Program-made: the position numbers and the translations under genes
Assembly (NCBI GenBank): GCA_012729555.1
Contig: JAAYCX010000097.1
Span: 1 to 64,000 of the forward strand
DNA: 64,000 nt
From: Acidobacteriota bacterium
GTDB lineage: Bacteria > Acidobacteriota > UBA6911
Direction of reading: 5' to 3'
Shown: piece by piece, positions 2,367 to 39,493 of the stretch
Position numbering within the stretch: position 1 is the first letter of the stretch
Layout of the letters: every line of letters starts with the position of its first letter
The notes under the pieces: generated by a model
What the model saw: only the letters and a program-made list of their open reading frames with translations
Databases searched by the model: none
Told to the model about the DNA's origin: nothing

Positions 2367-3407
2367 CTATTCGATCGGCTCCAGCGGCCAGCCCATCGTC
2401 TGCGCCCGGGGGCCGACGATGGAGTGGATCAGGTCCACCTTGCCGTCTCTCATCCTGAACATGTGGCAATCCACCAGCCCGCTGCCGGTGGGGTTGTCCT
2501 TGCTCGCGGACGCTCCCCCGCCGAACATCATGAAGCCGATCGAAATCCCCTTTTCCGTATCCACCAGGACGCGCCGCGGACCGTGGTCCATGCTGACGCC
2601 GATCCGCTTCCTGAAAGTCACCGGCGAACAGTCATGGTCCTGTCCCGTCGTCAGGAAGCCGTTCTCCCAGCGGTCGCACACCTCGGCGAAGGGGACGCTG
2701 ACCGTCGAGCCCTCCGCGAACAGGGCGAAATAATTGTTGGCCGCGTCCGCCAGCACCTTGCGCGGCGCGCGCTTCTCCGGGGGAAGGATGGTGTCCCAGT
2801 CCTGGTCCCTCGTGGCGAGGACGGCTTCGGGATTGAACATGAATTCGTTCTCCCGCGCCACGATGGTCTCCACCTCGCTGACCTTATCCTTCTCGACCTT
2901 GAGCCGGGCGGCGAACAGGATCGGCCGGACCGTCCCTTCCGCCGGTCTTGGCTTGGGCTTGGCCGTCGGGACACCCGGGGCGCCCATCGCGCCGCCGGCC
3001 CCGCCGGCCGGCATCCCCTTGGGCTTGGCCGTCGCGCCGCCCGGGGCGCCCATGCCGCCGCCGAAACCTCCCATGCCCGCCTCCCCCACCGTCTTCGAAT
3101 CGAACGGCTCTTCGATGACGGCTATGACGGCCGCGGAGCATTTCGCGGTATCGATCAGGGTCCGCCGGAGCAGGGGCTTGCCCGCCGTCCGCCAGAATCC
3201 TTCCCCGGCGTTTTTGGTCACACCGTTCTCGGTGAACCGGGCCCCCTCCGCGAGCGGCAGCATCGATGCGGAGTGCGCCGCAAGCGATTCAAAATACCTA
3301 TCCACCGTGTCTTCGAGCTGTCCGCGCGAACAGTCGGCCAAGGCATTGGACAGGCTTCCGAAAACCAGCAGCGTAAGAGCGATCATCCACGACACCCTGA
3401 ATTTCAT
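2367..3407 (-). CDS. Secreted protein with two SnoaL/DUF8021-like halves and a Gly/Pro/Ala/Met linker
   Basis: 346 residues beginning with a Sec signal peptide (about residues 1-25, cleavage after A-L-A-D). The mature part starts with C-S-R-G-Q and the pattern of SnoaL-like or DUF8021 domains (V-D-R-Y-F-E-S-L-A-A-H, then A-R-F-T-E-N-G). Residues about 109-157 are a low-complexity linker with two near-repeats of G-A-P-G-x-x-T-A-K-P-K. The second half (about 185-346) repeats the cone-fold style (N-Y-F-A-L-F-A-E-G-S, D-C-H-M-F-R-M). An SD (GGGAGGATT) precedes the ATG. Enzymatic activity is unknown; a periplasmic or cell-surface location is likely. Confidence 0.7.
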   Translation of the reverse strand: MKFRVSWMIALTLLVFGSLSNALADCSRGQLEDTVDRYFESLAAHSASMLPLAEGARFTENGVTKNAGEGFWRTAGKPLLRRTLIDTAKCSAAVIAVIEEPFDSKTVGEAGMGGFGGGMGAPGGATAKPKGMPAGGAGGAMGAPGVPTAKPKPRPAEGTVRPILFAARLKVEKDKVSEVETIVARENEFMFNPEAVLATRDQDWDTILPPEKRAPRKVLADAANNYFALFAEGSTVSVPFAEVCDRWENGFLTTGQDHDCSPVTFRKRIGVSMDHGPRRVLVDTEKGISIGFMMFGGGASASKDNPTGSGLVDCHMFRMRDGKVDLIHSIVGPRAQTMGWPLEPIE

Positions 3408-7976: not shown

Positions 7977-10278
<2,302 letters not shown>

Positions 10279-38222: not shown

Positions 38223-38915
38223 CTATTTCGTCTTGCGGCTGACGCTGAGGCCCGCCGAACCTGGAATGTCCGCGATGGAGGTTTCCAGGTTCGGCAGGCT
38301 GCGGGCGAATTCCAGGAAATCGCCGGCGGGACCGCCGCCGAAGCCCCGTCCGCCCATGCGGCCGCCGCGCGCCGGACGCTGCGACACGTTGTGGGCCGCA
38401 AAGATCCCCCCCACGGTCAGTTTCGGAAGGACGGCCTCCAGATACCTCGCGTACCACTCCTTGTCCGCGTCGCAGAACACAAAATCGAAGGGGCCTTCGA
38501 GCGCCGGCACCACTTCATGCGCGTCCCCCAGCCTCGCGTCGATATACCGGTCCAGCCCCGCGCGGGCGAAATACCCGAGCGCCTCCCTGTGGCGCCCCGC
38601 GTCGATTTCGACGGTGATCAGTTTCCCGCCGGTTTTGGACAGCGCCCAGGCTATCCACATTCCGGAGTACCCGTTCGAGGTCCCGATTTCGAGCGCGCGC
38701 TTGTAGTTGTTCCGGACGATGAGGTCGTAGAGCGCCCTGCCGTCCGCCTCGGGAACGTTCATCCCCCCCCAGGAGCGGTTGTGGCTCTCGAGGGTCTCCC
38801 GCACCCGGGCGTCGAACGCCTCCGTCCCCTCCGTGCCCGCCCCCGGGAGAGACGACATCATGCCGAACGCCAGGAGGGCGCAGAACATCGCCGCGATGAC
38901 GGTGCCTTTTGTCAT
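38223..38915 (-). CDS. Exported O-methyltransferase-like protein
   Basis: 230 residues. The N-terminus looks like a Sec signal peptide (residues 1-26). The rest is a class I SAM methyltransferase of the caffeoyl-CoA/catechol type: motif I E-I-G-T-S-N-G-Y-S at 76-84, D-A-D-K at 149-152 and A-A-H-N at 173-176, the usual metal-binding positions. A Gly/Arg-rich insert (about 180-198) breaks the C-terminal part. Export is odd because SAM is cytosolic, so the hydrophobic N-terminus might instead be a membrane anchor. Substrate unknown. Confidence 0.75.
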   Translation of the reverse strand: MTKGTVIAAMFCALLAFGMMSSLPGAGTEGTEAFDARVRETLESHNRSWGGMNVPEADGRALYDLIVRNNYKRALEIGTSNGYSGMWIAWALSKTGGKLITVEIDAGRHREALGYFARAGLDRYIDARLGDAHEVVPALEGPFDFVFCDADKEWYARYLEAVLPKLTVGGIFAAHNVSQRPARGGRMGGRGFGGGPAGDFLEFARSLPNLETSIADIPGSAGLSVSRKTK

Positions 38916-38974: not shown

Positions 38975-39493
38975 CTACTGAACCCGCTTCGCCACGATTT
39001 CCCGTGGAGCCCGGGGTCCGCCCCCGGGGCCGCCCGGACCGCCCATCCCGCCACCCGGAGGGGGACCGCCCATCCCGCCACCCGGAGGGGGACCGCCCAT
39101 CCCGCCGCCGGGACCGCCCATCCCGCCGCCGGGGCCGCCCATGCCTCCGCCCGGCTGGCCCGAGAATTCCCGGTCGATCGTGAAGGTGATTTCATCTCCA
39201 GCGACCTTGCCGGTGTAGATGGTCTTCATCTCGTTTTCGCCGAACCTGCGCACGACGACAAACCTGATTTCATCCCCGTCCACCTTTCCTTCGGTGATTT
39301 CGCTATCCCCCCTGCGGCCGCTGACGGTCCCGGTCAAGGTGTCCCCGGCCACCGTGAAGTTGAACACGGTCTCTGCCGGTCCCTGCATCCCCTGGGACTC
39401 CGCGACCCATTTCCCGGTCACGTCGGCGCCGGGCGCCGTCCCCACCAGGGCCAGCGCCAGCGCCGCCCCCGCTAAAAGCATCGATCTTCTCAT
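38975..39493 (-). CDS. Secreted protein with C-terminal Gly-Gly-Met-Gly-Gly-Pro repeats
   Basis: 172 residues. Signal peptide at 1-23, then a compact beta-rich domain (D-V-T-G-K-W-V-A-E, F-N-F-T-V-A-G-D-T-L-T-G-T-V-S-G, I-T-F-T-I-D-R-E) of a type common in small exported proteins. Residues about 112-160 are tandem G-G-M-G-G-P(P) repeats. The last residues are charged. It lies 59 bases upstream of the exported methyltransferase on the same strand, possibly one operon. Function unknown. Confidence 0.75.
   Translation of the reverse strand: MRRSMLLAGAALALALVGTAPGADVTGKWVAESQGMQGPAETVFNFTVAGDTLTGTVSGRRGDSEITEGKVDGDEIRFVVVRRFGENEMKTIYTGKVAGDEITFTIDREFSGQPGGGMGGPGGGMGGPGGGMGGPPPGGGMGGPPPGGGMGGPGGPGGGPRAPREIVAKRVQ
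39038..39150. repeat. In-frame coding tandem repeat (27- and 21-bp units)
   Basis: The core ACCGCCCATCCCGCC recurs at 39038, 39065, 39092 and 39113, with a diverged copy near 39134. Spacings are 27, 27, 21 and 21 bp, all multiples of three. They encode the Gly/Met/Pro repeats of the secreted protein at 38975-39493. Units of this kind readily change number by slippage. Confidence 0.85.

Follow-up and report, generated by a model that had tools for sequence, protein, structure and literature searches.

Three proteins of unrelated fold encoded in the window (the whole analysed stretch of 64,000 nucleotides) bear a signal-like start and a Gly-rich insertion in one loop, and these insertions, old in the genus, probably arose through tandem repeats that expanded time and again in exposed and permissive loops of ordinary exported domains. 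The first one, P1 (2367-3407, minus strand), is an exported-looking protein of 346 aa and a member of a family expanded in the genus. Its loop (2934-3086, minus strand; aa 108-158) is rich in Gly, Met, Pro and Ala and is located between two strands of domain 1. P2 (38223-38915, minus strand; 230 aa) joins a signal-like segment to an O-methyltransferase domain, and its Gly/Arg-rich loop (38322-38372, minus strand; aa 182-198) follows a strand ending in HNV. P3 (38975-39493, minus strand; 172 aa), the gene of which adjoins that of P2, is an exported-looking 8-strand barrel of avidin-like geometry with a (GGGMGGP)n loop (39005-39160, minus strand; aa 112-163) between strands 7 and 8, and a 27-bp tandem repeat (39036-39113; 2.9 copies, 96% matches) lies inside this loop. 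The stretches are a lineage trait, and nothing points to a new molecular machine. The same kind of Gly-rich loop in three unrelated exported folds of one genus, with the DNA mechanism visible in two of them, offers a case for testing whether low-complexity loops in bacteria are under selection or simply tolerated.

The ORFs of all three proteins were recognized as genes by the codon model. Their N-termini are hydrophobic and signal-like, our simple export rule scores all of them as exported, and hydrophobic N-termini were also seen by eye in the orthologues. An assembly or frame artefact was ruled out, as the loops are found again in frame in independent genomes. When 701 genes from 840 kb (window included) were ranked by Gly density (Gly count in 20-residue stretches holding no more than two of ILVFYW), P3 was 1st, P1 5th and P2 tied 6th-11th. 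Three of the 11 genes with at least 9 Gly fall among the 61 genes of the window, a clustering that can only be called suggestive because the Fisher p is 0.06. The initial annotation had described signal-like starts and Gly-rich stretches in three proteins of otherwise different folds; ORFs, rule scores and coordinates agree with this, and the folds do differ (NTF2-like for P1, O-methyltransferase for P2, avidin-shaped barrel for P3). It had also called the stretches linkers. That reading was dropped and between-domain linkers were ruled out, because the models of P1 and P3 and the position of the P2 stretch after HNV make each of them an insertion in one loop inside a folded domain.

Concerning P1, the structure model (pLDDT 84.7) drew on 28 relatives taken from named records. 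Domain 1 has the cone-shaped alpha+beta NTF2-like fold and aligns with NTF2, with ketosteroid isomerases and with further proteins of this fold at Z 10.0-10.9 over 98-125 residues (best alignment Z 10.9, 98 residues, 2.3 Å). To judge by how helices and strands follow one another in the model, domain 2 probably has the same fold; the structural matches listed span model residues 1-171 only, so they barely reach it. The best Foldseek match of the whole chain is the two-domain Lsd19, and it is a poor one (E-value = 1.4e-4, TM-score 0.30, rmsd 17 Å). Model residues 89-122 (aa 112-145), between strands 68-78 and 137-149, have a pLDDT below 50; the Gly-rich stretch sits there in a hairpin of domain 1, at which many paralogues in a 23-member alignment have few residues. 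P1 is thus like the NTF2 and ketosteroid isomerase fold in domain 1 and differs by this long hairpin insertion, and it differs from NTF2-like families in having no Pfam match: P1 matched 0 Pfam and 0 NCBIfam families at E 0.1, and its relatives L052 and L053 matched 0 Pfam families at E 10. The family may resemble the fungal family DUF8021 (PF26061).

Within the taxonomic family, 10 of 15 genomes have matches to the P1 family, and all ten belong to one genus. Each has 5 to 53 matches, the window's own genome 38, counts in which two halves of one protein may score separately. The matches listed for the own genome occupy at least 16 distinct places. In a sample of 149 phylum genomes, four were matched, all of the same genus (E 1e-6). 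Named records gave 29 loci, all from metagenome-assembled genomes, of which 19 are titled Acidobacteria, Acidobacteriota or Acidiferrales, six Deltaproteobacteria, one Gammaproteobacteria and three Bacillota or Firmicutes; on account of those outside the genus, the family is genus-centred and not confined to it. As an observation in its own right, 20 or more matches occur in 9/10 genus genomes, and the three members scanned of this exported-looking NTF2-like expansion gave no Pfam match.

P2 scores 84.3 bits against Methyltransf_3 (PF01596; curated cut-off 22) with an E-value of 9.4e-24 over the catalytic domain, and by this profile match it is a class I O-methyltransferase. It shares the catalytic domain of that family and differs by its signal-like N-terminus and its Gly/Arg loop. 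The signal-like N-terminus recurs in orthologues, and the supply of S-adenosylmethionine to an exported enzyme would be a puzzle. A second exported-looking methyltransferase (L120:15914-17899, minus strand) is fused to an FGE-sulfatase-like domain, and a Gly-rich stretch lies between the two.

The model of P3 was built from a single sequence (mean pLDDT 74.6, most core blocks 83-94) and is an 8-strand antiparallel barrel whose geometry, in the model, is that of avidin. In a structural second look, 47 of the 50 listed matches were titled avidin or streptavidin, a count to be read against the very many streptavidins in the PDB; the titles of the other three (6auo, 5f2b, 6uc3) are silent on avidin. 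The best of these matches has Z 12.6 over 97 residues at 2.4 Å with 20% identity. Foldseek was weak, with no match at E 0.001 or below: its best match was another barrel, NHBA-C3 (E-value = 8.5e-3), and its best avidin had an E-value of 0.022. Membership of the avidin family by sequence was rejected, as the profile tests came out against it. Specifically, the Avidin profile PF01382 had no match in the own genome (E 1) and was absent from the 19 families matched by 25 P3 relatives (E 5), and the 16 PDB sequences matched by the P3 family profile up to E 10 included no avidin. P3 therefore shares the barrel geometry of avidin and streptavidin and differs from avidin by the Gly-rich insertion in the 7-8 loop, where model residues 91-142 are poorly modelled, and by the lack of a match to the avidin sequence family. 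No papers joining "avidin fold" and Acidobacteria were found. The P3 family was matched in 27/149 phylum genomes, representing 16 of the 99 sampled genera. Two families with no Pfam match emerge here: exported NTF2-like proteins, whose expansion is largely centred on one genus, and an exported barrel of avidin shape that occurs across the phylum. Two P3-family barrels of the own genome, L007 (C3:11639-11938) and L008 (C97:93471-93824), look circularly permuted by eye: the ELTAKR-like last strand is found at the N-terminus and the Gly-rich loop forms the end of the chain, and in L008 the barrel comes after an esterase-like domain. The loop table holds no rows for these two.

All genus orthologues of P1, P2 and P3 that were examined carry a Gly-rich loop at the corresponding position, and the relatives outside the genus are short there. 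Genomes with a Gly-rich-loop orthologue number 6/10 for P1, 9/10 for P2 and seven for P3, the search for the latter having covered part of the ten genus genomes. The Gly-type P1 loop is represented by seven sequences from G000, G007, G008, G010, G011 and G012; together with three from named records, these loops have 34-83 residues and 21-50% Gly. In the remaining four genus genomes, P1 has as its best match a paralogue whose loop is short or rich in Pro and Ala. Among P1 paralogues, six have a loop of 28-29 residues, mostly Pro/Ala-rich, and six others one of 2-7 residues. For P2, ten sequences from nine genomes have loops of 16-35 residues with 5-16 Gly (P2 was not found in G014 at E 1e-20). 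In two other genera, four sequences from three genomes have loops of 6-10 residues that contain 0-4 Gly, but two of these four are just 36-42% identical and perhaps not orthologues. For P3, the seven orthologues have 36-69 residues where the automatic pattern caught the loop alone; in the window's P3 and in L193 the pattern started too early, so that the 86 and 82 residues given for them take in the strands before the loop. An additional P3 fragment is present in G012. The insertion is absent, by eye, from 10/10 non-genus rows of alignment A5. P3 paralogues in the genus include three with Gly-rich loops (L002, L003, L190) and five with short loops that are not Gly-rich (L004, L005, L006, L168, L191). 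The suggestion of a lineage habit holds for these three families, but that of a recognition feature does not, since motif, length, charge and Met content vary among orthologues and no motif is conserved. The stretches are Gly-dominated, repetitive and not conserved in sequence, as low-complexity Gly-rich regions are, though no repetition of the DNA was seen in P2.

The recurrence of the loop in three unrelated folds could also be taken as the mark of a shared functional module, in which exported proteins of the genus would use flexible Gly/Met/Pro or Gly/Arg segments to attach to one another, to the envelope or to a shared partner, the neighbouring P2 and P3 being an example. P3 adjoins P2 in 6/10 genus P2 loci and in 0/4 outside loci, contig ends cutting some loci, and this adjacency within the genus leaves room for a functional link; the exported look of nearly all real GGMGGP proteins (see below) also fits. 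However, the orthologues keep no motif, length or charge in common, the P2 loop is Arg-rich whereas the P3 loop is nearly uncharged, and G007 has a P2 with the loop and no P3 beside it, so that we regard such a module as quite unlikely. Binding of copper or silver by Met-rich exported loops, or absorption of oxidants, would agree with the regular Met spacing of P3 and L020. It was rejected as highly improbable because Met is not kept in the orthologue loops: L164 has two Met in 69 loop residues, L195 two in 50, and 7/10 genus P2 loops have none.

At the DNA level, most P1 and P3 genes among the 14 examined harbor tandem repeats inside the loop, and the period varies between genomes. For P3 it is 27 bp in the own genome and G011, 42 in G008, 24 in G009 and G010, and 18 and 9 in G014, with 12 bp in one paralogue; for P1 it is 45 bp in G011, 21 in G010, 12 and 24 in G008, and 12, 18 and 24 in G012. 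The periods of both families are multiples of three, except for one short period-13 row in the window's P3. Under tandem-repeat expansion, low-complexity insertions would enter exposed loops of otherwise ordinary exported domains and would then change in length as short GC-rich DNA units are duplicated in tandem and in frame, a process shown by the differing repeat periods for most P1 and P3 family genes examined and presumed for P2. The low-confidence modelling suggests that the loops are flexible, as they may also be in the cell, and the orthologues suggest that they are old in the genus (for P1, from 6/10 genomes). Selection appears to keep flexibility and composition and not sequence, and exported beta-rich domains may tolerate insertions best. 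The loops are probably tolerated and not functional.

Several observations count against this account. Free neutral slippage would predict less constancy than a loop that is Gly-rich in every genus orthologue examined. The window's P1 gene has just two 9-bp copies and no tandem repeat was found in the loop of its P2 gene; besides the period-13 row, some repeat rows contain indels; several genus P3 paralogues have short, non-Gly loops; the Gly-type P1 orthologue was found in only 6/10 genus genomes; and some proteins classified as cytoplasmic have Gly-rich windows too. Additionally, the 58 Gly codons of the three loops (GGC 36, GGG 9, GGT 9, GGA 4) depart from general Gly usage in the sample (47% GGG, 39% GGC), a comparison in which copied codons are not independent. 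One could also see in the loops a selected surface device: hypervariable, repeat-built Gly loops placed on ligand-site-like loops of unrelated folds (the avidin-like 7-8 loop, the NTF2 hairpin and the methyltransferase loop), tuning binding or an envelope association of P2 with P3, with slippage as the length dial. We find this joint reading, sites included, distinctly improbable.

Whether export matters was addressed with our own strict export rule and a lenient version, the latter added because the strict rule misses some Tat and lipoproteins; p values are nominal and many thresholds were tried. The strict rule is crude and called exported what appears by eye to be ATP synthase beta (window 7977-9386). 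For pattern scans, real-gene status and export of the ORFs were judged by eye. GGMGG gave 26 matches in 16 ORFs of the own genome, seven of them wrong-frame and nine real. Seven of these nine proteins look exported or periplasmic (the esterase lipoprotein L009, three P3-family proteins, L020, the TonB protein L026 and the NrfA-like L028); the other two are the Wzc-like inner-membrane L029 and the cytoplasmic GroEL. GGMGGP gave 26 matches in 18 ORFs across the 15 family genomes, three wrong-frame and 15 real, and 14 of the 15 real proteins look exported. Ten of those 14 belong to the P3 family, one being known from its 3' end alone, and one comes from another genus (G001); the non-exported protein is xanthine-dehydrogenase-like and cytoplasmic. 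Counted by family, 5/6 look exported (binomial p 0.0016, with 20% exported assumed). In the genus, GGMGGP has 25 matches in 8/10 genomes against two in a backward control, several matches lying within one repeat, and in five other-genus genomes it has one match (control one). A GGxGGxGG scan of the DNA (108 matches, control 108) was uninformative, as that pattern reads identically backwards and its control is the pattern itself. The proposed enrichment over cytoplasmic proteins is supported for the Gly/Met/Pro type, with the GGM tail of GroEL and the xanthine-dehydrogenase-like protein as counterexamples, but not for generic Gly windows. For the latter, with the three founders left out of the own genome, the strict rule at 8 or more Gly found 3/103 exported and 11/468 cytoplasmic proteins (p 0.48), and p exceeded 0.1 in 10/10 tests under both rules.

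These generic windows are what plain slippage driven by GC content would lead one to expect: in a genome of 66% GC, Gly/Ala/Pro segments would be everywhere, the three proteins would be the visible tail and export would be irrelevant. In line with this, the strict rule finds no enrichment in G014 of the same genus (one exported and six cytoplasmic proteins at 9 or more Gly), overall Gly content is alike in exported (9.6%) and cytoplasmic (9.5%) proteins, and PMC6821194 reports that Gly, Pro and Ala show the strongest enrichment in the low-complexity regions of bacteria. On the other hand, GGMGGP occurs mainly in the genus and mainly in proteins that look exported, and the insertions occupy particular loops. 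The own genome with its three founders reaches p 0.02 at 9 or more Gly, and two of the five thresholds applied with the lenient rule to the own genome plus G014 give p 0.044 and 0.012. G005, of another genus and with a lower GC content (59%), has 3/50 exported against 0/171 cytoplasmic proteins (p 0.011); because of this enrichment, the data suggest that an export bias of generic windows, if any, is not special to the genus. On balance, we consider plain slippage unlikely.

Prokaryotic Gly-rich low-complexity regions, as portrayed in PMC6821194, are alike in Gly/Pro/Ala enrichment, GGC prevalence and slippage as a considered source; the present case differs in that one particular loop within a folded domain carries the insertion throughout a genus, that this holds for three unrelated folds, and that the repeat period varies from genome to genome. 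Literature searches for Gly-rich low-complexity loops in Acidobacteria or in exported proteins found nothing to the point. GroEL, which carries a Gly/Met-rich tail also in the own genome, offers a second likeness, and PMC12571646 reports that this C-terminal GGM tail adopts polyproline II and is not wholly disordered. However, that tail is C-terminal in a cytoplasmic protein, whereas the segments described here are internal loops of exported-looking ones. Apart from these families, the exported-looking L253 of G012, assigned by eye, begins like a carboxypeptidase-regulatory protein and has a long GGGMGGPGGGGG stretch.
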